From Microbotryum silenes-acaulis (lineage: Eukaryota > Basidiomycota > Microbotryomycetes > Microbotryales > Microbotryaceae): a stretch of DNA of 64,000 bases. Made by a program: the position numbers and the translations under genes. Position 1 is the stretch's first letter, and every line of letters begins with the position of its first letter. The stretch is taken from assembly GCA_003665825.1 (NCBI GenBank), contig QPFY01000007.1, positions 1,178,001-1,242,000 on the forward strand. The letters are read 5' to 3'. The notes beneath the pieces were generated by a model. It had not been told where the DNA came from. It saw only the letters and a list, made by a program, of their open reading frames with translations, and searched no databases. This document shows, in pieces, positions 5,496 to 31,910 of this stretch.

Positions 5496-6894
5496 AGTAG
5501 ACGGCGCTCCTCCCTACCCAGCCAAGAACCACAAACCAAAAACCAAATAAAAATCACAAGTCCCCTTTCCCTCTTTCTCAATCTCCAAAATGTCTCCCAA
5601 ACACGCCAGAATACTGAACCTGTTTTCTCTCGCTCTTTTTGCCATTCCTCCTCATAGGCTTCCGTACTCCCCAGGAGCCTCGGGTTCTTTGCGCCGGCGG
5701 GCATTGTCGCCCTTGGTTCGAGCTTCTGCCACATCACGATGACACACAGCGAAAGCGGATCCCCTTGGCCCTCTCCTGGACTACGCCGTGAGTTTTCCAC
5801 TCCTCTCAAGGGCCGGGTCTGTCTTCTCTTTCGGTCGAGCGACTCCGTGATCTCCTGTTCAAGGCCGGCACAAACTGCCTGCGTGGCTCGCCTCTCCTTG
5901 CTTTGCTGCTCGCTCGGAGTCGCGGCCGCGCGGCGGGTGACTCGGGTACCGAACCGCCATACACATCCACACTCGAGCGAGGTCCCACACAATGACATCA
6001 CCGTCGTGGGCCTCATGCTCCTTCTTTCCCCAGTATCTGCGGTGATTGGGAACCACCTGCACGTACAACGGGACTCGAGTGTGCGTTCCGAGATTGGGAG
6101 TACGCCGCAGGGAAGCGAGGCCCCTGCGGAAGGTATACCCCGCCTCTGGTCTCCAGCCGCGCGCCGGTGTTGTCGGCCACCCGCCCGCGCTGCAGACCGA
6201 GGCGTGTCCAATGGACTGTCACATGCTCCGTGACTTTCCCCGGAAATCTCTGGATTGTGTGTTTTTGTGCGAAGTAGGCCTGTTTCGCAGTTGCAGTCAT
6301 TGAAATGGGGGTGATCTGGGGTCGTGCGGTCGCGAGGGGGGGCCGACTTTGGTAACCGAAAAGGGGTTTGGAATCCGCGGTGCAGATCCAGCGCAGTTGG
6401 GTACAAGGGGTAGGTGATTGCTGCGGTCGCAGGGGGTTACATCCCCCCTTTGGACCACGTGAATCATTCGGATTGAGCGGGATGTTTGTGCCATCGGAGG
6501 CCTTGTTCGACGCGTGTCAAAGAATTAAGGGGCTTCAAGGAGTAGGGCGGTCTCAGGGTGGGTCTGAAGTCAAAAGATCGAAGAAGGTTCAACTGTACAA
6601 CTATAATCGGATTCGCCTGTACAACACATGTACCACCACCAACAATTCCTCCATCGTTTCCCGATTCCTTGTGTATTATCTTCAATCTTCCTTTCATTCG
6701 TCTCTGGGAGGGAGCAACCGTGGGTGGGGGGGACTTGAACTCGGATGTATCGGGTTGGTCTGTTCTGCTAGTTACAACGCATCGAGCGGCGGTTGTGGTC
6801 ATCATCGTGCATACTGGGCAGCATCTCCTTTAGTTCCGTAGGGGGTTTTCTCGTCTTGCAAATTAGCGATGAGTTTCATACAAAAAAAAAAAAA
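5496..6894 (+). other. L1-A 3' UTR and poly(A) tail
   Basis: This stretch lies between the ORF2 stop and the A13 tail. It recurs in copy B (13636-15034) and, split by copia-1, in copy C. Open frames occur on both strands but show no recognisable protein domain and no start context, so I treat it as untranslated. A diverged relative of its last 200 bases is at 62073-62295. Confidence 0.8.
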
Positions 6895-7502
6895 TGGAAC
6901 AAAACCGTTCATTCAGCTGGGTTCCCTCATCCTCATCCTCATCCTCAGCCTTCGCTGGCCCTTAGACCGCTCGGCCATATCTCCCCCAGATGTGTACAGT
7001 GTGTTTTCAGTTGCTCGTACGGATAGCAATCTTTTGGCAGTCGTGTTGGAACAAAACCGTTCATTCAGCTGGGTTCCCTCATCCTCATCCTCATCCTCAT
7101 CCTTCGCTGGCCCTTAGACCGCTCGGCCATATCTCCCCCAGATGTGTACAGTGTGTTTTCAGTTGCTCGTACGGATAGCAATCTTTTGGCAGTCGTGTTG
7201 GAACAAAACCGTTCATTCAGCTGGGTTCCCTCATCCTCATCCTCATCCTCATCCTTCGCTGGCCCTTAGACCGCTCGGCCATATCTCCCCCAGATGTGTA
7301 CAGTGTGTTTTCAGTTGCTCGTACGGATAGCAATCTTTTGGCAGTCGTGTTGGAACAAAACCGTTCATTCAGCTGGGTTCCCTCATCCTCATCCTCATCC
7401 TCATCCTTCGCTGGCCCTTAGACCGCTCGGCCATATCTCCCCCAGATGTGTACAGTGTGTTTTCAGTTGCTCGTACGGATAGCAATCTTTTGGCAGTCGT
7501 GT
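6895..7502. repeat. 152-bp satellite array 1 (4 complete units)
   Basis: Four head-to-tail units of exactly 152 bp begin at 6895, 7047, 7199 and 7351. Each unit starts TGGAACAAAACCG, contains four TCATCC-type hexamers, then GGCCCTTAGACCGCTCGGCC, and ends GGCAGTCGTGT. The first unit differs slightly in its hexamer block. The array starts right after the L1-A poly(A) tail and ends right at the 5' end of L1-B, so both neighbouring LINEs break the repeat at the same phase. Read on the minus strand, the core resembles the first half of a leucine tRNA with an A-box. Confidence 0.95.
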
Positions 7503-7595
7503 AGTATCTTTCATCTTTCATCCCAATCGCACTACCCTACCTCTGCAAACGTCAATACATCGAATACATCAACTGCTACACCAGCTATCGACCCG

Positions 7596-9595
7596 ATGTC
7601 CGACCAGGCACCGCCTAATCCGGGCCGCGGCCCTCCGGAGCCGGCAGCGACGGGACAACCACGTGGTGACGCGGGGGCGGAGGCCGATGCCGCCGAGGGA
7701 CCAGCGAACCCCGGCCTAGCGCTGTACCAGGAAAAGCGTGATGAAGAAAAGAAGAGGAAAGAGGATGTCGCGAGAATCCTGAAGATGATCAGTGTCGAAG
7801 ATGGCACACGCCAGGGCACCCGCATCCTTGTGCTCAAAGACGCACTCGGCTTCGGCAAGGACCGGGCCACCTCCCTGCGCTTCAGCGCACTCAATGCAAC
7901 GAAACCAATTACCGACACGTCTGGTGCCGTTCTGGAAGTCACGTTCGAACACACCGGCGTGGCCACCGAACGCGAGAAGTCCGAGTTGTACTCGAAGGTG
8001 CTCCGTACCCTGTCGCCCGACACGTCGTTGTGTTTTAACCTGCCCGCAGGAGTTGTCCTCCCGCCCGAGCTCCAGAAATACGCTCCAATCATCCATGGAG
8101 TCGCACCGGAATCGATCATCCAAAGCGGCAACACCCGGTTCAAGTTCGTGGTGCGCTGCGCTAGCGCAGCGGCGCTCGACCAAGTCCACGACGCGGCGAC
8201 CAAGATCGAGTGGAAACGCTCCTTTGCCCAAGTCCGCAAGCGCTTGGCGTTCGTCAAAAACGTCGTCGAACTGCGTTTCATATCAGTCCTGAGGCCGAAT
8301 ACACGAACGACGACCTCTGGAACAAACTGCAAGGCGTCGTCGCCAAGCTTACCGGGGACGGCCACAAGTGCGACTTGCTCCAACTCCAGCAGCCTCTAAC
8401 GGTCGTTCAAGGCTCGTACCTCGTCGCTCGAGGAAACTACGCGGCCATCGTCCAGTTCGACGACGACGACCTGTTCAAGAACAACGGTGCTCAACTTAGG
8501 CAGGTTCTACCGACGAGGATCGACCTTCGGGGACGACTCGCAACACTCACGCCCCTTCGCCACGACTACGAGGCCGAAGCCTCGTGCCGCCGATGCGGCT
8601 TTGTAGGCCACTCCGACAACTGCGTTCAAAAGCCGGTCCAGCGTCAGCAGGCCTCCCAGAAAAACAACAACAACCAAAGGCCCCAGGCCGAGCCCCAAAG
8701 CAACATCGAGCAAACCTCGACCCCCCAAAAACAACGCAGAGGTGATGTAGCCTCTCCCTCTCCCCCAATGTCTCCTGTCGCGTCCAAGCGTTCAAAGAAG
8801 AACGCATCTCCCACAAGGGACACTAACAACTCACCACGAGTCTACCCTACTCGTTCACAAAGCTCTACACCCACAGCATCCGCCCCTCGCGGTTTCATCG
8901 TCGCCGCAAACCCATTCGCAAGTCTGGCCGGCGACGTAGCCGAGGAGGCGCAGGAGGAGCCCGCTCAGGCCCTCGAGGACGACGAGGACGCGATGAGCGT
9001 AGTCGAGGCACAGCTGGAACAACAGCAGGAGGTGCCGCCGCTGGAGCCTTCGGATCTGTCGGATCTGCAGGACCGCGGAGCGGAGGGGAACCAGGGGGAA
9101 CACACGGAGACGAGTGACGCGGAAGAAGGGGAATCGCAGTCGGCCGAGACGGGGTCTGTGCCTGAGATTGTTTCGACGACTCCTGAGCATACCCCTGAGC
9201 TGACGCGCTCCCGATCGGCCAGTCACCATCAGCTTGATATGGACGGCCTTCCCGACGACTGGATGAATCGTGTGTCGGATCGCGAGCGCAAACAGGATGC
9301 TGGTCTATACGATGAGATCACCGAGTTGGACCGCACCCCGTCTGTGACCGGTTGGATGCCTTCGCCGTCTCCAGGTCCAGTGTTTGATCCCGAGCCCGAG
9401 CCCAAGCCCAAGCAGGAGGTGGACGATGGAAGTTCCCAGGGTCTTCGCCGGTCCGAGCGTATCCAGCGTCTCACCAGCGTCGCGCGCACATCGGACTGGA
9501 ACGAATCGACTGCTGCGGACCCGCTCCCCTCACCCACATTCGGACCTATGTTGTCCATCAAGGGAGCTGCTGCTGCAACGAAGGCGCGATCGTAA
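7596..9595 (+). pseudogene. L1-B ORF1, broken by a 1-bp deletion
   Basis: The frame starts at the ATG at 7596 (protein MSDQAPPNPG...), chosen because copy C has the same start after a leader without other ATGs. An acidic-basic helical stretch (LYQEKRDEEKKRKEDV) follows. One T is missing near 8281 compared with copies A and C, so the frame shifts about 230 residues in and the CCHC knuckle is lost from the product. The downstream part (8281-9595) is otherwise open and equals copy A. Total length is 2000 nt against 2001 in copy C. Copy B could supply only ORF2 in cis, unless ORF1 comes from another copy. Confidence 0.9.
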
Positions 9596-9598
9596 TGA
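9593..9598 (+). promoter_or_regulatory. ORF1 stop / ORF2 start overlap (TAATGA), copy B
   Basis: The overlap is the same as in copies A and C. Because ORF1 is frameshifted here, ribosomes would not reach this stop in the right frame, so coupled ORF2 translation from this copy should fail if the mechanism depends on termination here. Confidence 0.65.
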
Positions 9599-12500
9599 TT
9601 GACTTCATCATCATGACCTGGAACGTCAACAGGGGCTTCAATACCCCTGAACGACGTCGTCTGCTTCTTTCGTATTTCACTTCGCTCACACCTCCCCCTT
9701 CTGCTATCCTTCTCCAGGAACACAATGTTCCTAAATCACGACAATCTCACATACGCCACGAGTACGCCCAGTCCCACCAGGGCGAGGCCTACTTTTCTCA
9801 ACACTGCCTCACTTTGATTCCAAGCTCTTCTCCTCTTCTCGGTGGTCATCGTCGCACGCGTCAGTCTCTTGGCGGGCGCTTACTCGTGACCACCTTCGAT
9901 GTGCGGGGTTCGACGGACGTCGTCGAACTCAACAATATCTACGCTCCGGTTCAACCCGCCGAGCGCCTCCTCTTCTTCACCTCCCTTCACTTTCGGGCGA
10001 CCGTCTCCTCTCACATTCGGTTCATCGCGGGCGATCTCAACGACTGCCCTATCCCCGCGGTGGATCGAGCGCAACAGGTGGACCGCCCGAACACCCACCA
10101 CTGGCCCGCGCTTATGTCGCGGCTCGACGGGGCGTACACGGATGCCATTCGGCTCATGCACCCACTGTCGCCGGCGACCACGCGCCCGCATCTCAGCAAG
10201 GACGGCCGGCTCATTTCGCGCGCGCGCATCGACTTTGTTCTGGTGCAGCGGCGACACGAGCGACGGATCGTTTCTGCTTCCACTCTGTACAATATCTCTC
10301 GATCCATGTCGGATCATCGACCGGTTACGGTCACATTTAGGCTGCGCGCAAGTGGTGCCGAGGTCGAAGAGGAGCTCTGCCTTCCCCAGGCGGCTCATTT
10401 TCTGACCCGCATCAACTCGTCAACCTTCAAACACGCCGAGTTTAAGGAGTTCGTCACTCCTCTCCTTGAGCAGGCACCGTCTGGGGATCCGGTCGCCGAC
10501 CTTCAGCGCGTACTCTCGGAGTCTCGGGTCCAAGCTCTCGAGCTGTCTCGGCGTCTGTTTCGGGAGCGCAACGCCCTCGAGATGATGCTGGTATCTCGAC
10601 TGCAGGACATTGAGTCTCGTCGGGTGCTGAGTCCCTTTGACATCATCGACTGGACGAACACCCACGACGCTCTCACCAAACTTGTGAACGAGCGAGCAAG
10701 GCAGTCCCGGATCAGGGCGCACGTTCCCGAGATTGCATCCGAGGAACGTCTCAGTCGTCCGGTACATGCCAAACTGGCTGCTCGGTCCCGGGATGTGAAG
10801 TTTCAGAGTATCCGGCTCGCTGATGGCGAGCTCACCACTGACATTGAGCGCGCGCTCGAGCACACCCATTCTCATTTCCAGCAGCACTACCTTGTCGAAG
10901 CGAAGGATCCGGAACAGGTCGTGACGATGCGGGATGAGCTCTTGGGACCCATCAGATCAGCAAGACCTTGTGACGACCCGCTTTCCGACGCTCGCTTCCT
11001 TCGGCGCTTCTCGAATTCGCACGTCGACATTCTTGCCGAGCCCATCAGCGAGGCCGAGGTGCTCGCAGCGATTCGAACCACGCACGAAGGTCGATCTCCG
11101 GGTCCTTCAGGGGTCCCCTATGAGATGTATCGAGCCTGCCCCTTGCTTTGGGCCCCTCTCTTGACTCGAGCCTACAACGAGCTGATTACTCGAGGCTCCC
11201 TTACTCCACAACAGAGCCAGGCGAATGTGCGCCTCTTGTTCAAACACAACAAACCTGGTGCAGCGCGGTGCGACCTCAAATCGTATCGTCCGATCACCTT
11301 GCGGGAATGCGACTACAAGATCTTCACCAAGGTCTACGTGGCTCGTCTGAACCGGATCCTCCCCGATGTTCTTCCGGCCGGACAGCATGGGTTCGTCAAA
11401 GGGCGAAGACCAGCGGACGCGGCTTTGCATCTGAGGCTCCTGATCGATGAGATTAGGGGTCGTGGGGCAGAGTTCCCGACAGCAGCGCTCCTCTCCCTGG
11501 ATCAGAGCTCGGCTTACGACATGGTCGAGCACGACTGGGTCTTTGCGGTGTTTGAGGCTCTCGGCGCGCCGGAATCTTTCCAGCGCGTCTTGCGGATGCT
11601 CTACAACGGCGAGACGTCCACAGCGCGGTACATTGTCAACGGTTTCCTTACCGAGACGGTGCGACTCCTGTGCGGTCTTGGCCAGGGCGATCCTCTCTCT
11701 TCTTCTGTCTGGGATGTGGTATTCCAACCCTTCCTTGATTCTCTCAGTCGACGCAACATTGCGCTGACTATCACTCTTCCGGAGCTGGCTCCTCGTCCAC
11801 AGACTCGATGCATCACCAATTTGGCGTTCGCGGATGACGCCGTCGTCGCTGTCGCTGGACCGGAAGCTATTGCTTCGCTCGAGGCGTTAGCTCGGGATTG
11901 GCGACTCGCGACGAACGGCCGTCTAAACACCGACAAAACCGTGGTGATGCCATTGGGCGCGACGTTGTGGGATCGCGCGGACTTGTCCAAACTGTCGTTC
12001 GTGGCACCGGACGAGTCTCTTCCCTGGATCGGTCTCCAGTTTGCGCCTGACGGCAACAACAGGCTGGGATTCCATGATCTTGAGCGAAGGGTCGATCGAG
12101 TGATTCTCTCGGTGCGCGACCGATGGATGACGCATCATACCCGGGCTTTCTATCTCAACCGCTACGGCATCTCCAAGGTGCTGCACTCTCTCTCCGCCGA
12201 CGTACCGCCATCCGACGTGATCAAGGCGATCGAGCGCAAGCTTGCCGACTTTGTGAAGGGAGGACCGCGGCGCAGTGACTACAAGCAATCGGTCGTCTTC
12301 ACGACACGGGCGCGAGGTGGTCTCAGCGTCGTGAGCATCCAAGATGTGGTGGATTCAGTCTCGGTACGGATTTGGGACGTGCTGGCCGGCGGGTCAACTG
12401 CGATTTGGAGCGATCTGGCTCGGAGTTCCATCCGGCGAGCGCTTCCGACCTTTGACTTTGCTACGGATCTGTGGACGTGGAGGAACGCCGACGCACCCCG

Positions 12501-13635
12501 GGAGCTACATCCCCGCTGGCGAGCGGTGCTCTCGGTCGCTGAACGCTACCCTGCCGTCGTCGATCCTGCCAAACTTTCGGTCTCCAATTTTCTTTCTCTT
12601 TCTCCCCTCCAACCTGGTCTGCATGACTCGCGGGCGTTCTCGGAGCAGGATAAGCGTTTGGCGAAGCTTTTCAGTTTCGAACGCACCATCGCTGACATCT
12701 ATGCGCGAGCCCAATACCCCGCAGCTCCAACGGTGCCCTGGACCCCTGAGAAGCATCCCCAAGGCGACGGCTCGGAGCTGTCCAACCTTTGGCAATGGAA
12801 GCGCGATCAAGTCCAGGCGTGGATCCAGGTCGCAGGCGATCGCCTCATCCCGCCGCTTCCGCCTCCTGTTCCCGTCCTCGCACGTCGACCACCCGTCATT
12901 CGTGTTGTTGGAGCACCTGGAGTCCGGCCCGGCGGTCCCCTCGAGCACATCTTGCCCAGAGCGACTCCGGTCGGCGTGCCTGATCAAAAACTTCCCCTCC
13001 CCTCCGGCCCCTTGTGTGCTGATCAGTGGAGAATGTTGAACTTGGACAGACCTTACACCATTGCGCGACTTCGACGCGTCATCAACCATCGACGTTTCGA
13101 CCACACACAACGCCCTGGATCACTCGTCACACCCAAAGAAAGGCGACTCTTCTGGGTGTGGTTCCACACCGGGCCCGCCACGGCCCGCGAGCGCGAGGTG
13201 CACTTCAAGCTGGCGTACCACTTCACGCCAACGCGGAAGCGCCAGTTTGTGCAGCGGCATGGCGACTCAGCCTGCTGCCTCGTGCAGGCATGCAGCCTGG
13301 CAGGGGTGGAGGATGACTTTACTCACTTTTGGCATGATTGCCCTGACTCTTCTCAGTTTTGGCAAGCAGCTAGGTCCATTCTCTGCGACGCGCTGGGGGT
13401 CGTGTCGATCCTCGACCTCGACTACACGGCACTTCAGATCGAGCACGGCCTCCCTCGACTGCGCGCTCGCCTTCCGACGTCGAAAAAGCGCCCAATCCGC
13501 GCCTTCATTGCGCTGGCGCTCGACACTCTCAGCAACCGACGCTGGGATCTCCATCGCCACGCCAAAGCGATGTCGAGCATGGACAAGGAGATGGCGGGAC
13601 TGAAGGAGAGGTTGGAGCTCAGATTGGCACGATGA
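9595..13635 (+). CDS. L1-B ORF2, endonuclease-reverse transcriptase
   Basis: This is the intact 1346-residue ORF2, identical in translation to the copy at 1455-5495. It has a complete APE-like endonuclease, RT motifs [18 protein letters not shown] and LAFADD, and the C-terminal Cys/His cluster. It overlaps the ORF1 stop by one base. Its intactness beside a broken ORF1 suggests the ORF1 deletion is recent, or arose in an amplification that did not need transposition. Confidence 0.95.
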   Translation: MIDFIIMTWNVNRGFNTPERRRLLLSYFTSLTPPPSAILLQEHNVPKSRQSHIRHEYAQSHQGEAYFSQHCLTLIPSSSPLLGGHRRTRQSLGGRLLVTTFDVRGSTDVVELNNIYAPVQPAERLLFFTSLHFRATVSSHIRFIAGDLNDCPIPAVDRAQQVDRPNTHHWPALMSRLDGAYTDAIRLMHPLSPATTRPHLSKDGRLISRARIDFVLVQRRHERRIVSASTLYNISRSMSDHRPVTVTFRLRASGAEVEEELCLPQAAHFLTRINSSTFKHAEFKEFVTPLLEQAPSGDPVADLQRVLSESRVQALELSRRLFRERNALEMMLVSRLQDIESRRVLSPFDIIDWTNTHDALTKLVNERARQSRIRAHVPEIASEERLSRPVHAKLAARSRDVKFQSIRLADGELTTDIERALEHTHSHFQQHYLVEAKDPEQVVTMRDELLGPIRSARPCDDPLSDARFLRRFSNSHVDILAEPISEAEVLAAIRTTHEGRSPGPSGVPYEMYRACPLLWAPLLTRAYNELITRGSLTPQQSQANVRLLFKHNKPGAARCDLKSYRPITLRECDYKIFTKVYVARLNRILPDVLPAGQHGFVKGRRPADAALHLRLLIDEIRGRGAEFPTAALLSLDQSSAYDMVEHDWVFAVFEALGAPESFQRVLRMLYNGETSTARYIVNGFLTETVRLLCGLGQGDPLSSSVWDVVFQPFLDSLSRRNIALTITLPELAPRPQTRCITNLAFADDAVVAVAGPEAIASLEALARDWRLATNGRLNTDKTVVMPLGATLWDRADLSKLSFVAPDESLPWIGLQFAPDGNNRLGFHDLERRVDRVILSVRDRWMTHHTRAFYLNRYGISKVLHSLSADVPPSDVIKAIERKLADFVKGGPRRSDYKQSVVFTTRARGGLSVVSIQDVVDSVSVRIWDVLAGGSTAIWSDLARSSIRRALPTFDFATDLWTWRNADAPRELHPRWRAVLSVAERYPAVVDPAKLSVSNFLSLSPLQPGLHDSRAFSEQDKRLAKLFSFERTIADIYARAQYPAAPTVPWTPEKHPQGDGSELSNLWQWKRDQVQAWIQVAGDRLIPPLPPPVPVLARRPPVIRVVGAPGVRPGGPLEHILPRATPVGVPDQKLPLPSGPLCADQWRMLNLDRPYTIARLRRVINHRRFDHTQRPGSLVTPKERRLFWVWFHTGPATAREREVHFKLAYHFTPTRKRQFVQRHGDSACCLVQACSLAGVEDDFTHFWHDCPDSSQFWQAARSILCDALGVVSILDLDYTALQIEHGLPRLRARLPTSKKRPIRAFIALALDTLSNRRWDLHRHAKAMSSMDKEMAGLKERLELRLAR

Positions 13636-15034
13636 AGTAGACGGCGCTCCTCCCTACCCAGCCAAGAACCACAAACCAAAAACCAAATAAAAATCACAAG
13701 TCCCCTTTCCCTCTTTCTCAATCTCCAAAATGTCTCCCAAACACGCCAGAATACTGAACCTGTTTTCTCTCGCTCTTTTTGCCATTCCTCCTCATAGGCT
13801 TCCGTACTCCCCAGGAGCCTCGGGTTCTTTGCGCCGGCGGGCATTGTCGCCCTTGGTTCGAGCTTCTGCCACATCACGATGACACACAGCGAAAGCGGAT
13901 CCCCTTGGCCCTCTCCTGGACTACGCCGTGAGTTTTCCACTCCTCTCAAGGGCCGGGTCTGTCTTCTCTTTCGGTCGAGCGACTCCGTGATCTCCTGTTC
14001 AAGGCCGGCACAAACTGCCTGCGTGGCTCGCCTCTCCTTGCTTTGCTGCTCGCTCGGAGTCGCGGCCGCGCGGCGGGTGACTCGGGTACCGAACCGCCAT
14101 ACACATCCACACTCGAGCGAGGTCCCACACAATGACATCACCGTCGTGGGCCTCATGCTCCTTCTTTCCCCAGTATCTGCGGTGATTGGGAACCACCTGC
14201 ACGTACAACGGGACTCGAGTGTGCGTTCCGAGATTGGGAGTACGCCGCAGGGAAGCGAGGCCCCTGCGGAAGGTATACCCCGCCTCTGGTCTCCAGCCGC
14301 GCGCCGGTGTTGTCGGCCACCCGCCCGCGCTGCAGACCGAGGCGTGTCCAATGGACTGTCACATGCTCCGTGACTTTCCCCGGAAATCTCTGGATTGTGT
14401 GTTTTTGTGCGAAGTAGGCCTGTTTCGCAGTTGCAGTCATTGAAATGGGGGTGATCTGGGGTCGTGCGGTCGCGAGGGGGGGGCCGACTTTGGTAACCGA
14501 AAAGGGGTTTGGAATCCGCGGTGCAGATCCAGCGCAGTTGGGTACAAGGGGTAGGTGATTGCTGCGGTCGCAGGGGGTTACATCCCCCTTTGGACCACGT
14601 GAATCATTCGGATTGAGCGGGATGTTTGTGCCATCGGAGGCCTTGTTCGACGCGTGTCAAAGAATTAAGGGGCTTCAAGGAGTAGGGCGGTCTCAGGGTG
14701 GGTCTGAAGTCAAAAGATCGAAGAAGGTTCAACTGTACAACTATAATCGGATTCGCCTGTACAACACATGTACCACCACCAACAATTCCTCCATCGTTTC
14801 CCGATTCCTTGTGTATTATCTTCAATCTTCCTTTCATTCGTCTCTGGGAGGGAGCAACCGTGGGTGGGGGGGACTTGAACTCGGATGTATCGGGTTGGTC
14901 TGTTCTGCTAGTTACAACGCATCGAGCGGCGGTTGTGGTCATCATCGTGCATACTGGGCAGCATCTCCTTTAGTTCCGTAGGGGGTTTTCTCGTCTTGCA
15001 AATTAGCGATGAGTTTCATACAAAAAAAAAAAAA

Positions 15035-16232: not shown

Positions 16233-16429
16233 TTGGTACTCACCGCGCGTTGGAGTCCGCGTTAGGTGCTCGGCGGGTTTTGATCTGCGCAGCGCTCTTT
16301 GCGCGCAGGGGTTTGACTTTCACCCAACTGCTTGCCGTCGTTGCTTTATAACCTCTTTTAGCTCTTTTTGTAGCGGTCCCAGCCAACCTGAAGGATTGCA
16401 ATTTATGAGCCCCAGTCCCAAAAAAAAAA
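16233..16429 (+). mobile_element. L2 LINE, severely 5'-truncated copy (3' UTR only)
   Basis: About 197 bp match the last part of the L2 3' UTR seen at 31630-31820, 61135-61320, 61530-61704 and 63070-63250 (start GTACTCACCG, end GAGCCCCAGTC). It closes with A10 at 16420-16429. It begins right after the repeat end GTCGTGT, with a few extra bases (TTG). L1-C starts at the base after its tail. Confidence 0.88.
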
Positions 16430-21700: not shown

Positions 21701-22748
21701 TTTTCTTTCTCTTTCTCCCCTCCAACCTGGTCTGCATGACTCGCGGGCGTTCTCGGAGCAGGATGAGCGTTTGGCGAAGCTTTTCAGTTTCGAACGCACC
21801 ATCGATGACATCTATGCGCGAGCCCAATACCCCGCAGCTCCAACGGTGCCCTGGACCCCTGAGAAGCATCCCCAAGGCGACGGCTCGGAGCTGTCCAACC
21901 TTTGGCAATGGAAGCGCAATCAAGTCCAGGCGTGGATCCAGGTCGCAGGCGATCGCCTCATCCCGCCGCTTCCGCCTCCTGTTCCCGTCCTCGCACGTCG
22001 ACCACCCGTCATTCGTGTTGTTGGAGCACCTGGAGTCCGGCCCGGCGGTCCCCTCGAGCACATCTTGCCCAGAGCGACTCCGGTCGGCATGCCTGATCAA
22101 AAACTTCCCCTCCCCTCCGGCCCCTTGTGTGCTGATCAGTGGAGAATGTTGAACTTGGACAGACCTTACACCATTGCGCGACTTCGACGCGTCATCAACC
22201 ATCGACGTTTCGACCACACACAACGCCCTGGATCACTCGCCACACCCAAAGAAAGGCGACTCTTCTGGGTGTGGTTCCACACCGGGCCCGCCACGGCCCG
22301 CGAGCGCGAGGTGCACTTCAAGCTGGCGCACCACTTCACGCCAACGCGGAAGCGCCAGTTTGTGCAGCGGCATGGCGCCTCAGCCTGCTGCCTTGTGCAG
22401 GCATGCAGCCTGGCAGGGGTGGAGGATGACTTTACTCACTTTTGGCATGATTGCCCTGACTCTTCTCAATTTTGGCAAGCAGCTAGGTCCATTCTCTGCG
22501 ACGCGCTGGGGGTCGTGTCGATCCTCGACCTCGACTACACGGCACTTCAGATCGAGCACGGCCTCCCTCGACTGCGCGCTCGCCTTCCGACGTCGAAAAA
22601 GCGCCCAATCCGCGCCTTCATTGCGCTGGCGCTCGACACTCTCAGCAACCGACGCTGGGATCTCCATCGCCACGCCAGAGCGATGTCAAGCATGGACAAG
22701 GAGATGGCGGGACTGAAGGAGAGGTTGGAGCTCAGATTGGCACGATGA
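18708..22748 (+). pseudogene. L1-C ORF2 with an in-frame TGA
   Basis: The length is the same as the intact ORF2 (4041 nt), but TGA at 20862-20864 replaces the CGA found in copies A and B (a C-to-T change at a CpG). The stop falls at codon 719, after RT motifs A and B and before LAFADD, so the product would lack the metal-binding motif C and the C-terminal zinc cluster. A further open stretch (20865-22748) continues in the same frame. About twenty other substitutions separate it from copies A and B. Confidence 0.92.
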
Positions 22749-22960
22749 AGTAGACGGCGCTCCTCCCTACCCAGCCAAGAACCACAAACCAAAAACCAAA
22801 TAAAAATCACAAGTCCCCTTTCCCTCTTTCTCAATCTCCAAAATGTCTCCCAAACACGCCAGAATACTGAACCTGTTTTCTCTCGCTCTTTTTGCCATTC
22901 CTCCTCATAGGCTTCCGTACTCCCCAGGAGCCTCGGGTTCTTTGCGCCGGCGGGCATTGT

Positions 22961-23175
22961 TTTTGGGAACCTGAAGCTGGAGCTGGAGCTGAGGCACGAG
23001 ATACGTCAGTACGAGAGCCGAAGATGATAGTAAAGATAGTTGGAGAAAGAAGAGAGGTGCTAAGGGAGCGCGCGCGAGGCAGGCACGAGCCGCGCGAGGC
23101 GACTAATATCAACAACTAGTAACTATTTATAATCAGGAAGACAAGTGGGATGAAACAGCAATATACACTCTGACA
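22961..23175 (-). repeat. copia-1 3' LTR
   Basis: This 215-bp LTR matches 27176-27390 except for one base. On the minus strand it begins TGTCAGAGTG and ends CCCAAAA, so the left end has the usual TG while the right end is not a plain CA. Confidence 0.93.
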
Positions 23176-23188
23176 CCCCCCCGTGCTG

Positions 23189-26100
23189 TCATACCACTGC
23201 ACCTCGTAAACCCAAATTTGCCCGATGGAAGATGAATGGCTTGGGACCCAAGGCTTTGGTGAAGATATCGGCGAACATGTCACTGGTGGCGATGTAGCGG
23301 ACCTCGATCTCCTTCTCAGCAACCCTCTCGCGGACGTAGTGTTCCGAGATGCGAACGTGACGAGACCCCTGATGGTTGGTCGGGTGCTGCGCAAGAGCCA
23401 GCGCACCTTGGTTGTCACCGTAGAGCACGACTGGGCCAGAGACCGGAGCGCCAAGTTCAGCCAGGAGTTCGCTCAGGTGGATGGCATCACCGCTTGTGTA
23501 CGAAAGAGAGAGGTACTCCGCGTCGGTAGTAGACTTGGCGACCCTGTGCTCGCGTTTGGAGCACCAAGCGATCGCGGCTCCAGACAAGATGAACACATAG
23601 CCCATGGTCGATCGCGAGGTCGTTAGACAGGCTCCCCAGTTCGCGTCCGAGTAGCCATGGAGTGGTTGGCTGGTCTTGCGATAGGTGAGCCCCAAGTCCA
23701 GCGTGCCTTTGATGTAGCGGAGGACCTGCTTGATGGCTGTCCAATGCTCCGGGCCGGGCTGCTGCGAGAAGCGAGCGAGGTAGCTGACCACGAAGGCAAG
23801 GTCCGGACGAGTTCCTACGGCGGCGTACATCAACGAACCGATGGCCTGCAAGTAGCGCGTACGATCCTGAGGAGTGGCCGACAAGTCCTCGAAGTCAAGG
23901 ACGACACCTGGCTGCATTGGAATACTCGCCGGCTTGGCATCGGTGAACTGGAACCTGGCCAGGATGTCCCGAAGGTAGCGCTCTTGCGAGAGCGTGATAG
24001 ATCCGTCTTGTCCACGCTTGACTTGGATGCCTAGGATGTATTCGGCAGGTCCGAGACGTTTGATGCCATACGCGAGTTCCAACGCGTCAAGCACCCGGTC
24101 GATCTCGGCGGTAGAGGGACCAACCAAAAGCAAGTCGTCGACGTACAAGGCAATGTAGTGAGAGTGCCCGTCTTGTTTGCGGCGGTAGATACAGCTGTCG
24201 GACCTGGTGGGGACGTATCCGAGGGACCGCAGAGTCGAGTCGATCTCAGCGTTCCAGATGGTGCCAGCCTGGCGAAGGCCATAGATGGATTTGGACAGCT
24301 TGAGGATCTTGCCGGGCAGGTCAATGCCCTGAGGGACGCGCATGTACAGAGGCTTGTCAAGTTTGCCGTGGAGGTACGCTTTGTTGACGTCGGCCTGATG
24401 GACGTGATAGCCGTTGGCTGCGGCGAGTGCGATGAGGGCTCTAATGGACGTGAATTTGACGACTGGGGCGTAGTTCTTCTCGAAGTCAAGGCCAGGACGT
24501 TGGGCACATCCGTGAGCGACGAGACGCGCCTTGTAATCGGTGATGTCGCCATGCTGGTTGCGTTTAGTCCGGAACACCCAGCCCGATCGCAGGAGGATCT
24601 CACCCGCGGGGAGCTCACCGGATTCGATGATTTCGAAGACCTCGTAATCGTTAAGAAGCGAATCGAATTCATCCTGTGCCGGTGCGCCCCAAATGTCCTC
24701 TTGTCCCGATCGGATGACGTCGCCCTAATTGGCCGGATCGCGAACAACTGTCAAGTCGTGATCTGCGAAGCCGGCTTTGGTGGATGCGAAGGCGAGGAGC
24801 AGGCTCTTGAAGGAGGCGGTGGGTCCGTCGGGGCCGTCGACGAGCTGTTCCCGCGTGATCATGGTGGGAACGAGCTGGCGGCGTGTCCGGGGGCCAACTA
24901 TGATGTTTCGAGTGTCGACTTCACCGTACTTCCCCGGATCGGGACCAACCTTGGCGACGTCGCCGTACTCCCAAGTTGGCTTGACTTTGGCGAGTGGAGC
25001 TGGATCCGGAGGTGGCTGCGGCAAGTTCACAGCTGGCTCCGTCGTAGCGCTCGTGGTCGACGAGGTGTCGTCTTTGTCGGCCGAGTTGGTCGAAACCGGC
25101 GACGCGGGTGTTTCGTCAGGCGTTGGGGAAGGTGGCCGCGGGGGAGGGTCGACAAGCGTTGGAGCCGACGACGGTGCTGGAGCTTCGACAGGTGGCGGCT
25201 GGGGGCAGTAACCCGGGATGCGTGGCTGCGTCACGCGGGTTGGTGCGGTCGTGAAGGGGAACTCGGTTTCAACGAACGTCACATTTCGGCTCAGACTCAC
25301 ACGCATCGAGGAGGGGTCAAGAAGACGCCAGGCTTTCGCGTGTCGATCGTAACCCACGAAGACCAGAGCGATCCCTTTTGGGTCAAGTTTGTCCCGTCGG
25401 TGAGCCGGCACGGTGGCCCAGGCGCGACAACCGAATGCCCGAAGACCCTCCACGCCTGGTGTGGCGCCCGACCAACGACTGTTTGGGATGCCTCCACCGA
25501 GAGCCGCGTGAGGCGATAGGTTCTTGACGTGGATGTAACACATGGCAGCCTCATCCCAGCATGATCGTGGGAGTCCCGAGTGAGACAGAAGAGCCAGGGT
25601 GCCCTCCACGATCGACCGGTTGACTCGCTCGGCTCGACCGTTTTGCTCGGGCGTGTACGGTGTGGTCAATTCGCGACGAATTCCACGAGCTACGCAGTAG
25701 CCGTTGAAGGCGGTAGAGACATACTCGCCCCCGTTGTCCGAGCGAAGCGTTTTGACCTTGCGACCCGTGGCGTTTTCGATCTCCAGAAGCCAATCCTTGA
25801 ATGTCGGAAGGACCTCGCTTTTGTGCCCGATGGGGTAAACCCAAGTCTTCCTCGAGAAGTCGTCGATGAACGTGACGAGGTACCGCTTATGGCCGAAGGA
25901 CTCCTCGGGGAAAGATAAGACATCCGAGTGCACCAATGCAAGCGGTTCCGCGGCATGCGACGACGAAGAGGGGAAAGGCAAACGATGCGCTTTGGAGGCA
26001 AGGCACGCGTTGCAGGTGAAGTCTTCACACTCGAAGTCACTATAGGGCCAATCCAAACCCTCCACCTGGCCAGAGGCCGCCAGTTTTTTAAGTGTCTGGA

Positions 26101-26869
26101 CAGAGGCGTGGCCGTAGCGCCGGTGAAGGGTAAGTAGAGGTAGCCTATTGGACTTGGTGGCGACGAGCGTGTGTAGCGCACCTTTGCTGGCAGCTTGGAC
26201 CGAAGCGTTGAGTTTGTAAACGCTGGACGCGATGGCTGATGCTGTGGCGATGCACCCTTGCGGCGTGCGGAGCTCGACTTCTCCGTGTTCGAAGGTGATG
26301 CGAACGCCTTTGCGGTCGAAGGCCCGGACCGAGATGAGGTTGGCAGGGCTCTCGGGGGCGTAGATCACGTCGTTGAGGGTGAACTTGGTACCATTATCGG
26401 AGACGAGCTTGACCGAGCCGATTCCCGAGGCCTTCACCGTTCCCCCTAGACCTTGGAGGACTTGCGGGGTAGGCGAAAGGGGGCCGTCAAAGAAGGACGC
26501 ATCGTTGACGACGTGGCACGCCGACGCCGAGTCTAGCAGAAGGATTTCCGCCGGTGGCCCGATGTTGGTAAACGTAGCAGAAGAAAAGACGAACAGATGT
26601 TGATCCTTGGATGCTTCCTCGGTGGCCACGAACGTGGACGCAGGCGATGATGAGCCTTGGAGTTCCTTCATGGCGTTCTTGACCTCGAGGTACTTGGCTC
26701 GTCCGGACACTTGTCGAGCCAGTGTTTGCCTTGACCACAAGCTGGGCAGTTGCTCGGGGCAGGACCAGAACGATCCCATTTTGAGCGTTTGGTCGGTACG
26801 ACCGCCTTCGCAACGAGGACCGTCGCTCGATTCGTCCGAGCGTTGAATCCAGCCCAAGAGGGCGGGCAT
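23189..26869 (-). pseudogene. copia-1 Pol (protease, integrase, RT, RNase H), one stop codon
   Basis: One frame runs through all Pol domains. The protease active site reads [10 protein letters not shown]. The integrase has the zinc region LHRRYGHAS...CNACLASK and catalytic residues in [17 protein letters not shown] and [12 protein letters not shown]. The RT has [11 protein letters not shown] and [10 protein letters not shown]. The RNase H has [20 protein letters not shown] and LYGDNQGA. A single TAG at 24725-24727, between integrase and RT, splits it; the flanking frame is the same, so one base change explains the break (for example from Trp TGG). Pol lies in a different frame from Gag, overlapping it at 26668-26869, so either a programmed shift or an indel joins them. 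Confidence 0.9.
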
Positions 26870-27171
26870 GGCGGCATCGTGAGGACCCAGTCAACGTAAT
26901 TGTCCTCCGTAAGCTTCGAGTCGTGTGGGAAGACCGGGGGGTTGACTGGGGGGAGTAGCTGACGCATGGAGAGTGCGTCGTCGTCCTGTGCGGGTGCGGG
27001 GCGCTGGTTCCTAATCAGCTCGTCGAATTGCTCTTTGGTGAGCGTGACGGAGGTAGCGGAGGCGACGTCGATGGTGTGGATCGACGTTGATGACGGTGGT
27101 AGAGGAGGCGTAGATGCCATGTCACCGTGATCGTCGGGGTCGCCCGCCGCTGGTAGGTTCGGTGGGCTCAT
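26668..27171 (-). CDS. copia-1 Gag, internally shortened
   Basis: The frame of 167 residues opens at the ATG at 27171, which lies inside the primer-binding site. It keeps an N-terminal part ([10 protein letters not shown], typical of the start of copia Gag) and a zinc knuckle [14 protein letters not shown] (C-X2-C-X4-H-X4-C). Only about 50 residues separate them, where copia Gag normally has a core of more than 150 residues. I infer an internal deletion of the capsid core. Such a product could bind RNA but probably not assemble particles. Confidence 0.7.
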
Positions 27172-27175
27172 AACC
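27164..27175 (-). promoter_or_regulatory. copia-1 primer-binding site (half-tRNA initiator Met type)
   Basis: Directly inside the 5' LTR the minus strand reads GGTTATGAGCCC. This is the complement of the anticodon arm of fungal initiator tRNA-Met (GGGCTCATAACC). Drosophila copia primes from a cleaved initiator tRNA-Met in the same way. The Gag start codon (27169-27171) lies inside this site. Confidence 0.8.
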
Positions 27176-27390
27176 TTTTGGGAACCTGAAGCTGGAGCTG
27201 GAGCTGAGGCACGAGATACGTCAGTACGAGAGCCGAAGATGATAGTAAAGATAGTTGGAGAAAGAAGAGAGGCGCTAAGGGAGCGCGCGCGAGGCAGGCA
27301 CGAGCCGCGCGAGGCGACTAATATCAACAACTAGTAACTATTTATAATCAGGAAGACAAGTGGGATGAAACAGCAATATACACTCTGACA
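27176..27390 (-). repeat. copia-1 5' LTR
   Basis: This is the 215-bp LTR at the start of the element as read on the minus strand. It is followed at once by the half-tRNA primer-binding site and on the outer side by the ATTGT target duplication. Confidence 0.93.
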
Positions 27391-28582
27391 ATTGTCGCCC
27401 TTGGTTCGAGCTTCTGCCACATCACGATGACACACAGCGAAAGCGGATCCCCTTGGCCCTCTCCTGGACTACGCCGTGAGTTTTCCACTCCTCTCAAGGG
27501 CCGGGTCTGTCTTCTCTTTCGGTCGAGCGACTCCGTGATCTCCTGTTCAAGGCCGGCACAAACTGCCTGCGTGGCTCGCCTCTCCTTGCTTTGCTGCTCG
27601 CTCGGAGTCGCGGCCGCGCGGCGGGTGACTCGGGTACCGAACCGCCATACACATCCACACTCGAGCGAGGTTCCACCCAAAGACATCACCGTCGTGGGCC
27701 TCATGCTCCTTCTTTCCCCAGTATCTGCGGTGATTGGGAACCACCTGCACGTACAACGGGACTCGAGTGTGCGTTCCGAGATTGGGAGTACGCCGCAGGG
27801 AAGCGAGGCCCCTGCGGAAGGTAGACCCCGCCTCCTGTCTCCAGCTGCGCGCCGGTGTTGTCGGCCACCCGCCCGCGCTGCAGACCGAGGCGTGTCCAAT
27901 GGACTGTCACATGCTCCGTGACTTTCCCCGGAAATCTCTGGATTGTGTGTTTTTGTGCGAAGTAGGCCTGTTTCGCAGTTGCAGTCATTGAAATGGGGGT
28001 GATCTGGGGTCGTGCGGTCGCGAGGGGGGGGCGACTTTGGTAACCGAAAAGGGGTTTGGAATCCGCGGTGCAGATCCAGCGCAGTTGGGTACAAAGGGTA
28101 TGTGATTGCTGCGGTCGCAGGGGGTTACATCCCCCCTTTGGACCACGTGAATCATTCGGATTGAGCGGGATGTTTGTGCCATCGGAGGCCTTGTTCGACG
28201 CGTGTCAAAGAATTAAGGGGCTTCAAGGAGTAGGGCGGTCTCAGGGGGGGTCTGAAGTCAAAAGATCGAAGAAGGTTCAACTGTACAACTATAATCGGAT
28301 TCGCCTGTACAACACATGTACCACCACCAACAATTCCTCCATCGTTTCCCGATTCCTTGTGTATTATCTTCAATCTTCCTTTCATTCGTCTCTGGGAGGG
28401 AGCAACCGTGGGTGGGGGGGACTTGAACTCGGATGTATCGGGTTGGTCTGTTCTGCTAGTTACAACGCATCGAGCGGCGGTTGTGGTCATCATCGTGCAT
28501 ACTGGGCAGCATCTCCTTTAGTTCCGTAGGGGGTTTTCTCGTCTTGCAAATTAGCGATGAGTTTCATACAAAAAAAAAAAAA

Positions 28583-29129
28583 TCGCGACTCGTCTATCGG
28601 CGTTCCTTCATCCTTCCCTGGCCCTTAGACCGCTCGGCCATATCTCCTCCAGATGTGTACAGTGTGTTTTCAGTTGCTCGTACGGATAGCAATCTTTTGG
28701 CAGTCGTGTTGGAACAAAACCGTTCATTCAACTGGGTTCCCTCATGCTCATGCTCATCCTCATCCTTCGCGGGCCCTTAGACCGCTCGGCCATATCTCCC
28801 GTTGTGTATGTCGTATACTTTTGGTTTCCCGTACGAATCGTCAGGTTTTTCGCAGGTCCAAATCGCGACTCGTCTATCGGCGTTCCTTCATCCTTTGCGG
28901 GCCCTTAGACCGCTCGGCCATATCTCCCCCAGATGTCTACAGTGTGTTTTCAGTTGCTCGTACGGATAGCAATCTTTTGGCAGTCGTGTTGGAACAAAAC
29001 CGTTCATTCAACTGGGTTCCCTCATCCTCATCCTTCGCTAGCCCTTAGACCGCTCGGCCATATCTCCCCCAGATGTGTACAATGTGTTTTCAGTTGCTCG
29101 TACGGATAGCAATCTTTTGGCAGTCGTGT
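28583..29129. repeat. Satellite array 3 (mixed subtypes)
   Basis: About four diverged units. Two follow the standard form. Others carry a different flank (TCGCGACTCGTCTATCGGCG and GTTGTGTATGTCGTATAC). All share the core GGCCCTTAGACCGCTCGGCC followed by ATATCTCC, so this tRNA-like core is the most conserved part. The array follows the L1-C tail and ends GTCGTGT at 29129, where an L2 copy begins. Confidence 0.9.
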
Positions 29130-30836
29130 AGACGACCTACAAGGTCCTCAGCAAGGTCTTGGTGGCGCGACTCAATGGGGTGCTCGGCGAGCTTTTGCCG
29201 CCGGCGCAACACGGTTTCATGCCATCAAGACGTTCAGCGGACGCGGGAAGTCATCTCACTCTCCTTCTCGAAAAACTCAAGTCGCTAGGCACTGAAGTTT
29301 TCCCCGAGGGCGCCCTCTTGTCTTTGGATCAGCAGAGCGCGTACGATCGGGTCGATCACGCCTGGATCTTCGAGGTCTTTGAGGCCTTTGGGTTCGGCGA
29401 GCGTTTCATCTCGCTGCTGCGCGCTCTCTACGATCCCGAGACTCTGGGGGTGCGCTACCTTGTCAATGGGTTCCCCACGGACTTGGTGCGGTTGCTGTGT
29501 GGTCTTGGTCAAGGAGATCCTCTCTCGTGCCCGGTTTGGAACATCACGTTCCAGCCCTTCCTCGACGCCCTCGTTCGGCGCGGGATCGCGCTCGACCTGC
29601 AGAAGGTGTGGCCAGGGGGGCCGCGTGCGCAGCTTACGCATCTGGCGTTTGCCGACGATGCTGTGGTGGTGGTGGAGTCACCGGCGGCATTGTCGAAGCT
29701 GCAAACGCTGTCGCAGACGTGGTACGAGGCAACCAACGGGAAGACCAACACGGACAAGACGCTGGTGCTACCACTCGGACCGAACTGGCTTCGGGACGAG
29801 ACTGCGCAGGCGCTGCCAACGGTGCAGGAGGGGGAGAGCTTCAAGTGGTGCGGCTATGCCTTCTTTCGCCACGGTGACTCGAAACTGTTTTAGACCCATG
29901 TTCTTGACAGGATCAAGGCCAAGGCGCGCGCCGCTGGAGACCGGACACTTTCGCCGCGTGGGAAGGTCTTCTATGCCAACGCTCACATCATCTCGACGGT
30001 CCTCCACGTGCTGTCCTTCGACATTGTTGTTGTAGGAGCGTCTCTAGTTACGTGGCGTCGATGGATGACCTAATGTGAGATAGTGGATCGCTAAAGGTCA
30101 ATCGACTGTAACAGAGCGAATGGGCGAGATGTGATATCGAGTGCGTGGTGGAGAAGAGAGAAAAAACAGCTAGGCCAAAAGACGCAATCTCATGTAAACA
30201 ACCAGCCGCCTCTGCCGCCTCTACCGGACCCCGCACAACACCCGCGCGCCCCGCGCCACTGCTAAGACCATAAGTCCCTCTGGACCGCCGACCCCACTAA
30301 TTTCCCACAACAGGCTTCATGACCGGTTCGCGTCTGCTGTGGAGCAGGACACCCACTGGCGGCTCATGTACGACGTGACGCTGACGCGCAAGAGGCAGCA
30401 TACTCAGGGTCATGCCTCTTCGCCGACGTGTCTGTTCTGTGGCAACGATGCAGCGGTCATCGAGACGGTGTCGCACTACTTTTTCGAGTGCGCGTACTCG
30501 ACCAGCTTCTGGGGCGGGGTGCTGCGCATTCTGTTCGACAAGCTCGGCATCGAGGATACCGACGTCGATCCGTCGACGTTCACTCCGGAGCAGCTGACTA
30601 TGGGGCTCCCCCTTTTACGGGGTCGTGGGAGAACGACCTCGAAATGGATGTGGGTTCGGCTGGCTTGCGCGATCGGCTTCCAGCGGCTGCACCTGCTCCG
30701 CTGGCGCGTTCATCAGCGGTTCGAGCTGGACAAGGTCGTGGCCCCTCCCTCGCTGCCCAGTGCACTCAGAGCGTTCGAGCGAGATTTTCTCTCTCGAGCG
30801 GGCTTTGTGCCTGGGGCTCGAGATTGGGAGGTGTGA
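29130..30836 (+). pseudogene. L2-D ORF2 remnant (RT and C-terminal zinc region)
   Basis: The first part encodes RT with SLDQQSAYD (motif A), [10 protein letters not shown] (motif B) and LAFADDAV (motif C). TAG at 29891-29893 replaces a TGG seen in copy E (58880 region). Homology continues to 30024, then an LTR-like segment (30025-30312) follows. The C-terminal part (30313-30836) carries the zinc motif CLFCGNDAAV...HYFFEC and ends at TGA 30834-30836. The L2 RT resembles L1 RT in motif layout but is clearly a different family. Confidence 0.88.
30025..30312. mobile_element. Solo-LTR-like insert in L2-D, ends TGTTGT...ACAACA
   Basis: This 288-bp segment is absent from L2-E. It has 6-bp inverted ends TGTTGT and ACAACA, as in an LTR. 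The flanks (GACAT left, GGCTT right) are not a duplication, and the L2 sequence on either side is 842 bp apart in copy E (59017 and 59860). Orientation is unknown. No matching LTR was seen elsewhere in the window. Confidence 0.65.
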
Positions 30837-30954
30837 TGACCGAGTTAAGTCCTTCCTTCCTATTTTCCTCCCCTCCTTTCCTCCCTTCTTTTTCGGAGGT
30901 CGACTTTTCTTTCAGAACCTGACTGTCTTGAAACTTGTTGCGCAGTGGAAGGCT

Positions 30955-30997
<43 letters not shown>

Positions 30998-31832
30998 GCG
31001 CAGTAGCGGTTTTCGTTCTTGGATGGATCGGCAAGCCGGGTCGATCGTCTTTGCGTTGGAGGCTTTGTGAAGTTTCCCCTCTCCTGTCCCCCCTTTTTCC
31101 CTTCCCTTCCTCTTCTCGTTCCTGTTGCTCAGTTGTTGACTACGCTTCAGCCACTTCTCTCCTTTTACTCCTAAGCCGTGTGTTGGATTCCGTCGAATGG
31201 TTCGTTCGTTCGCGTTGGTCAAGATCTACAGCATGGATCGGGAAGAAAGGTCGCTCGTTTTTGGTCGACATCCTCGCGTCAAGGCGAGGCTCGTTTCGTT
31301 GTATTGGATCGTTTTTCGCTCGGCCCCGACGGCTCAACAGCCAGCACTCGAGACTCAGCCAAGGGAGGACATCAGGCGCTGTCGGGGTGACGAGTAGCTG
31401 GGGCTTGGCTGCGGCCTGTTAGTCCCTGGGGACCTCTATCTCTGGCTTCGACCCCCTCCCTTGGCCCCTCGGGTGTGTTCCCCCCCTCCTCCCCTCCTCT
31501 CTGTCTTAGTATTCCTCGTTCTCCGTGTTTCCAGTCGTGACTTTTTTGTATATTCTCCCCCTCTCTTTCTCTAGGCGCTCTTGCCTGGTTTTCGAGTATC
31601 TTCGCTCCCACTCTTGGGACGTGAAGCGGCAGCAGTACTCACCGCCCGTTGGAGTCCGCGTTAGGTGCTCGGCGGGTTTTGATCTGCGCAGCGCTCTTTG
31701 CGCGCAGGGGTTTGACTTTCACCCAACTGCTTGCCGTCGTTGCTTTATAACCTCTTTTAGCTCTTTTTGTAGCGGTCCCAGCCAACCCGAAGGATTGCAA
31801 TTTATGAGCCCCAGTCCAAATAAAATAAAAAA
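30837..31832 (+). other. L2-D 3' UTR
   Basis: This 3' UTR is shared with 60384-61345 and, in part, with 16233-16429, 61356-61723 and 62488-63268. It contains a (CT)n run at about 30961-30992 that is much longer than in copy E, and closes with GAGCCCCAGTC plus an A-rich tail. Confidence 0.8.
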
Positions 31833-31910
31833 TGTAACAAAACCGTTCATTCAGCTGGGTTCCCTCATCCTCATCCTTCGTTGGCCCTTAGACCGCCCGG
31901 CCATATCTCC
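31833..31910. repeat. Partial satellite unit at the right end of the array
   Basis: This is half a unit, from TGTAACAAAACCG to CCATATCTCC, with two TCATCC hexamers. It stops exactly where the tRNA-like core would begin on the minus strand, and non-repeat sequence follows. It marks the right border of the LINE and satellite composite. Confidence 0.88.

Follow-up and report, generated by a model that had tools for sequence, protein, structure and literature searches.

LINE insertions at a nearly constant distance upstream of tRNA genes, and a tRNA-Leu-derived satellite, in the fungus Microbotryum silenes-acaulis

A 64,000-nucleotide stretch of the genome of the basidiomycete Microbotryum silenes-acaulis (contig QPFY01000007.1, here C7, positions 1178001-1242000 of a 29.85-Mb assembly; hereafter the window) contains two families of long interspersed nuclear elements (LINEs), L1 and L2, inserted in a tandem satellite, and a preliminary description of it had proposed that both families break the satellite unit at one and the same base pair. 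This arrangement very probably reflects a broader rule, namely that poly(A)-tailed LINEs with an apurinic/apyrimidinic (APE) endonuclease integrate upstream of tRNA genes, at a nearly constant distance and in the opposite orientation, the satellite being a duplicated piece of a tRNA-Leu gene. The position and orientation of the insertions, the missing common target sequence, the use of the same address by several families, the short or absent target duplications and the stacking of copies are all apparent in the assembled sequence. Found at a nearly constant distance from tRNA genes that differ in sequence, the elements fit the class of tRNA-gene-targeted retrotransposons devoid of long terminal repeats (non-LTR retrotransposons).

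Insertions upstream of tRNA genes

The list of tRNAs comprises 46 hits, obtained by scoring 63 of 669 candidates, and is a lower bound. Their upstream flanks (about 300 bp for each tRNA, 80 bp at the C7 tRNA-Leu gene) were compared with a library made of the window and of 60 loci surrounding L1 or L2 3' ends, and the main count was restricted to 36 tRNAs, after removal of eight dispersed tRNA-Ser-like copies and of the two tRNA-Leu loci of the satellite. Library sequence begins 55-100 bp upstream in 30 of these 36 tRNAs, taking the first match beyond 40 bp. This first match falls at 58-75 bp in 24 of the 30, with a median of 64.5, a clustering that has a binomial p of 6e-23 against a uniform distribution over positions 41-300. 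The commonest position is 63, corresponding to a spacer of 62 bp (5/30), and spacers at tRNA genes mostly measure 57-74 bp, with 62 bp the most frequent value; the five first matches at 81-100 bp are partly due to the masked search having passed over a short or simple repeat closer to the tRNA. Where L1 or L2 occurs within 300 bp upstream of a tRNA, it lies on the opposite strand in 20 cases out of 20 (among them a Ser-like repeat, whose L2 lies at 206 bp). The points of truncation of these pieces vary widely, but most of the pieces start at 60-70 bp, and all run away from the tRNA. Another example is an inverted duplicate tRNA pair on C14, tallied separately from the 30, with the (ACTTC)n 5' end of a LINE at about 68 bp. 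Without filtering, some library match is present in 39 of the 46 upstream flanks, part of them matching only the flanks of paralogous tRNAs.

The association also holds over larger distances, as a divergent L1 or L2 3' end is found within 9 kb upstream of 22 of the 46 tRNAs, compared with 1.1 on average, and never more than 5, in 1000 shuffles. Downstream flanks, analysed as a control for 37 of the 46 tRNAs, contain library matches in six cases, scattered from 3 to 295 bp and including one paralogous tRNA flank, and no matches to LINE proteins were obtained in these 37 flanks. Random places of 346 bp match the library in two cases out of 20, one of which is located inside a library locus. A search with a B-box pattern returned 31 hits, and among the 26 loci fetched, three received a tRNA call from ARAGORN, including one (L156) that is a repeat resembling a short interspersed nuclear element (SINE). 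The other two, absent from the list, each have an element upstream, separated from the tRNA by about 62-65 bp (L164) and 57 bp (L170); L164 had already been met beside an L1 3' end (L019), leaving L170 as the only one fully new to the sample.

The reverse approach, starting from the LINEs, relies on 162 3' ends in the genome (87 of L1 and 75 of L2), of which 13 lie in the known satellite arrays (six L1 and five L2 on C7, one of each on C9) and 149 elsewhere. The 3' flanks were read for 60 copies (30 of the 87 L1 and 30 of the 75 L2), five of them in the satellite, and the 55 flanks outside it are all unrelated to the satellite sequence. The preliminary description had itself pointed to the flanks of copies elsewhere as decisive; they largely set aside the idea of a specificity for the satellite sequence, and what many of the sites share is a tRNA gene, while the view that the repeat is the target stands. 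Thirteen of the 60 blocks have their 5' edge within the fetched locus and could be tested for a neighbouring tRNA, a nested copy (L058), a satellite copy (L059) and a tower already counted (L037) being left out; a tRNA was found at a spacer of 61-68 bp in six of them (L010, L019, L021, L027, L036 and L052).

These insertions share other properties. Within 25 bp after the tail, library sequence resumes in 48 of the 60 copies, mostly a further LINE or repeat, which is often entered at an internal position; these tails are not fully independent, as they include copies of one event (L059-L062, L047-L048). Target duplications are short (CCATCG in L021, CGAGGA in L030, CGTGCA in L052) or, in several others, absent. 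The address is used by L1, by L2, by a family with an (ACTTC)n 5' end and by a family known by its 3' end GGGGGCAATATGATGAACAAGTTCTAC, as well as by a GC-rich repeat, GCTGAGGTGGAGGTTTTGAGGGGCC, and by the tRNA-like SINE-like repeat (C10:600484 and C13:463671). The latter has a tRNA-like head (AGTGCAGTGG...GGTTCGAATCC), sits at the upstream address of two tRNA genes and was encountered at loci L079, L081, L156 and L172, L172 being a B-box end only.

The tRNA-Leu satellite and its LINE junctions

The core of the satellite, CTTAGACCGCTCGGCCATATCTCC, is the reverse complement of GGAGATATGGCCGAGCGGTCTAAG, nucleotides 1-24 of a tRNA-Leu. Two intact tRNA genes starting with GGAGATATGGCCGAGCGGTCTAAG were identified with Rfam, both on the minus strand (C7:1149363-1149480 and C9:870744-870861); the first is a tRNA-Leu(UAA) gene with an intron according to ARAGORN, and the second is very similar to it. 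The C7 gene forms the first unit of the array, at its left end, and is followed by the identical 62 bp closing in GTCGTGT. Each unit is composed of about 32 nt of the tRNA-Leu 5' half, the 62-bp upstream flank, and 30-60 bp containing (TCATCC)n, with a period of 152 or 146 bp between the elements of the window. Allowing up to three mismatches, the core occurs at 265 places in the genome, all on the same strand, and the 100 places listed among these are on C7 and C9 only. On these matches the satellite is an amplified tRNA-Leu 5' half together with its upstream flank. ARAGORN and Rfam run on the window alone had missed this link, because the satellite holds the 5' half only, and their sole call was tRNA-Ser-like (51135-51207). 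Both tRNA-Leu(UAA) loci (C9:870838-877178; C7:1149457 onward) are tandemly duplicated, with a break within the tRNA at about nucleotide 32; the C9 locus comprises five core copies spaced by 1,585 bp, and a long 146-bp array from 883.5 kb.

All the junctions named in the preliminary description were recovered (6895, 7502/15035, 16232, 29129/29130 and 31833). The tail of L1-A gives way to TGGAACAAAACCG from 6895. L1-B lies between GTCGTGT (ending at 7502) and TGGAAC (15035), with neither duplication nor loss, as had been claimed; duplications being often short or absent at other sites, this is unexceptional. The L2 3' fragment follows GTCGTGT (16232), a few bases preceding the start of L2 homology at 16236, and L2-D begins at 29130, with TGTAACAAAACCG picking up again at 31833. 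Upstream of the tRNA 5' end, exactly 62 bp lie before the start of each of L1-B, the L2 fragment and L2-D, all three in the opposite orientation. The last copy of L1-C ends at a spacer of another type (TCGCGACTCG, 28583), which resembles the sequence upstream of the tRNA-Leu gene on C9, and its junction is 60-63 bp from the tRNA-like core. L1 and L2 are distinct families, L1-B and L2-D aligning at 65% over 462 bp only.

These junctions are not all independent, as L1-A, L1-B and L1-C belong to a higher-order repeat with a tandem period of about 17.26 kb. The L2 fragments at C7:1159866, 1177130 and 1194393 are spaced by 17,264 and 17,263 bp, and the 3 kb surrounding each of them show 99.7-99.97% identity. 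Because this repeat is near-identical, L1-A is taken as one of its copies, and several junctions of the window are thus copies of one event. The L2 fragment and L2-D are independent insertions, and L1-B is probably another.

Why do two families share a base pair? The 62-bp spacing is the commonest distance of positional targeting, which accounts for the shared breakpoint without a recognition sequence of the R1/R2 type. The sister array on C9, where the satellite unit runs for about 17 kb (883542-900306) without any L1 or L2 3' end, shows that the coincidence is not absolute. There, an L1 with an (ATCTTTC)n 5' end is inserted at TTCAGCT/GGGTTCCC, 86 bp from tRNA position 1, again with neither duplication nor loss, and an L2 has its 3' junction at TG/GAAC, the tail being followed by GAACAAAACCG, 64 bp from tRNA position 1. 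The claim that both families use one base pair therefore holds in the window for L1-B, the L2 fragment and L2-D, but not on C9, where other base pairs are used, so that both families use a zone of the unit rather than a single position. These C9 elements are located at 900.4-908.0 kb and 916.8 kb (L205, L206 and L207).

Table 1. Features of the window, with positions counted from its first nucleotide
Feature	Position	Strand	Remarks
L1-A, LINE 3' part	1..6894	+	extends left beyond the window; 99.94% identical to L1-B over an aligned 6.9 kb
Satellite block	6895..7502		4 units of 152 bp
tRNA-Leu 5'-half core (reverse complement of GGAGATATGGCCGAGCGGTCTAAG) next to L1-B	7417..7440	-	tRNA position 1 at 7440
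62-bp spacer from tRNA position 1 to the L1-B 5' end (target distance)	7441..7502		
L1-B, full-length LINE	7503..15034	+	7532 bp including A tail; target duplication absent
ORF1 region of L1-B	7596..9595	+	two overlapping frames (7596-8399, 8165-9595); motif CRRCGFVGHSDNC
ORF2 of L1-B	9388..13635	+	1415 aa; APE-type endonuclease and reverse transcriptase
Satellite block	15035..16232		8 units (152/146 bp)
L2 3' fragment with A tail	16233..16428	+	62 bp from tRNA core 16147-16170
L1-C, (ATCTTTC)n 5' end	16429..28582	+	directly behind the L2 tail; Copia interrupts at 22961-27390
Satellite block, two spacer types	28583..29129		second type resembles the C9 tRNA-Leu upstream flank
L2-D, second LINE family, 5'-truncated	29130..31832	+	62 bp from tRNA core 29044-29067
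Last partial satellite unit (TGTAACAAAACCG...)	31833..31910		
Other tRNA-Leu cores	6961, 7113, 7265, 15101-16147 (8 copies), 28624, 28776, 28904, 29044, 31887		

The open reading frame (ORF) 2 product of L1 matches RVT_1 in Pfam, and Exo_endo_phos with 23.7 bits for L1-B, just below the curated cut-off of 24.5, and 24.7 bits for L1-C, just above it; Pfam found no RNase H in it. Its best match in the PDB is the human LINE-1 ORF2p, with both endonuclease and reverse transcriptase covered (E 7e-28), R2 proteins ranking lower, and 77 among the 81 relatives listed are named as Microbotryum proteins. From these predicted domains, the A tail and the lack of RNase H, L1 fits the description of an L1-like APE LINE. 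The ORF1 region of L1-B has no Pfam match and is split across two overlapping frames, by a frameshift or an intron; its motif CRRCGFVGHSDNC is CCHC-like.

Microsatellites at the LINE 5' ends are family-specific, (ATCTTTC)n in L1, (CA)n in L2 and (ACTTC)n in the third family (for example at 16429-16634 and 52389 in the window, and at L104, L105 and L113). The Copia element in L1-C (22961-27390) has a 5-bp duplication, ATTGT, and further Copia elements occupy 36537-38924 and 53700-58652, the latter within an L2 copy. The 73-nt tRNA-Ser-like sequence (51135-51207, minus strand) is dispersed, with eight other places that share its upstream flank; no LINE was found at -60 of these copies, and it may be a repeat rather than a working tRNA gene. 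The upstream flank at C8:74258 (L083) contains, beside a truncated L2, a tiny A-tract insertion enclosed by a near-perfect 35-bp duplication, whose length far exceeds that of the other target duplications.

A candidate mechanism and its alternatives

The DNA immediately before the start of a tRNA gene is occupied by TFIIIB. Given targeting, it is likely, with less confidence than the targeting itself, that TFIIIB tethers the LINEs: the initiation complex of RNA polymerase III (Pol III), most likely through TFIIIB just upstream of the tRNA start, would hold the LINE ribonucleoprotein, whose endonuclease would nick the exposed DNA at the outer edge of the complex, and target-primed reverse transcription would then make the new copy. 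Each newcomer would land between the tRNA and the older copies, its tail abutting the truncated start of an older element, so that the tower would grow away from the tRNA. As for the satellite, it would have arisen by tandem duplication of the tRNA-Leu(UAA) 5' half with its upstream flank. Since the half-tRNA units lack the B box, insertions near -62 are thought to have occurred beside the intact gene and then to have spread along the array by unequal exchange, giving the shared breakpoint. Alternatively, the B-box-less arrays of tRNA-Leu 5' halves on two chromosomes might themselves serve as extra landing pads, making the satellite a docking array at which several non-LTR families and SINE-like passengers share a host-set address of about 62 bp, nearly saturated. 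This extension is doubtful, although docking on half genes becomes slightly likelier in view of the C9 array having insertions of its own, at 86 and 64 bp.

Several observations weigh against tRNA targeting. The C9 insertion of L1 at 86 bp falls outside the main interval of 58-75 bp, and the satellite half-tRNAs are devoid of the second half and of the B box (needed by the amoebal element TRE5-A), so that the insertions adjoining them require a later exchange. No tRNA was found at seven of the 13 testable blocks (L009, L018, L024, L039, L044, L045 and L054), including with Rfam at an E value of 0.5, a search that also missed the intron-bearing tRNA of L021 found by ARAGORN. Similarly, no listed tRNA lies within 9 kb of 62 of the 87 L1 and 62 of the 75 L2 3' ends, the list being a lower bound, and no LINE was found upstream of the 5S (one locus) and U6 (two near-identical copies) genes. 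Finally, four of the 36 tRNAs have no recognised element upstream. Either the targeting is strong but admits exceptions, or some tRNAs have been lost, have escaped recognition or stand farther off behind longer towers. Three of these four element-free tRNAs have a GGGGGGCGG motif 57-77 bp upstream. More generally, a G-run followed by CGG (GGGGGGCGG, with five G in L108) occurs 57-92 bp upstream of several tRNA genes (L071, L076, L080, L090, L098 and L108), in some cases at the start of a repeat and in others without any element.

Could the same picture arise without tethering? Pol III genes may offer fragile or open DNA (nicks, R-loops, nucleosome-free edges), selection purging the insertions made elsewhere. 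The several junctions devoid of target duplication and the few 5S and U6 loci free of LINEs would agree with this, but an opposite orientation in 20 cases out of 20 and a narrow distance are hard to obtain from fragility or selection alone, and no matches at a fixed distance exist downstream, which makes this explanation improbable. A second possibility is that LINEs target the A tails of earlier LINEs, as would be the case for elements like Zorro3 or Zepp (the latter a Chlorella LINE with a target preference and stacking), proximity to tRNAs then reflecting only the landing place of the first copy. The many tails directly followed by another element point in this direction, as do several duplications within the A tract (L025, L028). 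Stacking is nevertheless expected anyway if newcomers share one address, the target on the tRNA side is mostly not an A tract, and a boundary at 58-75 bp in 24 of 30 cases, in one orientation and with many unrelated tRNAs and 5' truncation points, weighs against this idea, which is less probable still.

Recognition of GTCGTGT/TGGAAC by both the L1 and L2 endonucleases, on the model of R1, R2 or SART, was suggested by the three 5' junctions of the window and their matching 3' junctions at an identical base pair. It is highly improbable in view of the 149 3' ends lying outside known arrays and the 55 unrelated flanks, the other base pairs used by L1 and L2 in the same unit on C9, the different spacer in which L1-C ends, and the insertion sites without common sequence upstream of other tRNAs; the sequence-specific class of LINEs (R1, R2, SART, Tx1/Dewa) is ruled out by the unrelated flanks and the C9 positions. 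The repeat does precede L1-B and the L2 pieces, like a 5' promoter monomer travelling with the elements as in mouse L1, but this has next to no likelihood and is rejected, as the repeat is not always 5' of an element: it also follows A tails and flanks a 5'-truncated L2 (the ground on which the preliminary description had rightly regarded it as the target), covers about 17 kb of C9 (883542-900306) without an L1 or L2 3' end, and is absent from the 5' edges of copies upstream of tRNAs elsewhere.

Relation to known tRNA-targeted elements

No report of a tRNA-targeting LINE in a fungus was found in the literature searched, in which subscription journals are thinly covered. In the available parts of the articles cited in this section, the targeting of tRNA genes by TRE elements is called unique to dictyostelids in 2016 (PMC5006619), a 2018 review names no non-LTR elements other than amoebal ones and anticipates further cases of Pol III targeting among fungi (PMC5911963), and the term tRNA is absent from the main text of a paper on Microbotryum transposons (PMC10502011). 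A fungal case would mean that LINEs evolved docking on Pol III again, far from amoebae, and opens to testing the idea that TFIIIB generally serves as a dock for target-primed reverse transcription. Targeting of tRNA genes would also explain why LINEs pile up in towers, and suggests how a satellite can arise from a tRNA gene.

Among fungal elements, Zorro3 of Candida is likewise a LINE with a target preference and stacking, but it targets poly(A) tracts, and no link to tRNAs was found for it (PMC7175516). The yeast Ty3, Ty1, Tca8 and other LTR elements similarly find a safe address upstream of tRNA genes through the Pol III machinery, the difference being that they are LTR elements with an integrase, inserting at distances of a few bp or over a broad window (PMC5911963). 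The zebrafish Dewa is a LINE found in a tRNA-Leu spacer, but is classed as target-specific, (PMC3706591), whereas in Microbotryum many tRNA genes are targets, the tRNA-Leu spacer being just one of them. Closer in habit, the non-LTR element NLTR-B of Polysphondylium inserts 39-64 bp upstream of tRNA genes (PMC5911963), but has an RNase H domain (PMC5006619), unlike the L1 ORF2 analysed with Pfam.

The strongest likeness in structure and position is to TRE5-A, TRE5-B and TRE5-C (DRE) of Dictyostelium, which insert 44-54 bp upstream of tRNA genes in the opposite orientation (PMC5911963). For TRE5-A, contacts between ORF1 and TFIIIB and a need for the B box have been reported (PMC5911963; PMC5006619). 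The distance differs, the commonest spacer being 62 bp here, as does the host, a basidiomycete in which several families share the address. Both systems nonetheless combine an APE endonuclease and a reverse transcriptase with an oligo(A) tail, insert on the upstream side of tRNA genes in the opposite orientation, and follow position rather than sequence; in both, most tRNA genes are occupied, 61% of those of D. discoideum carrying a TRE (PMC5911963; PMC5006619).

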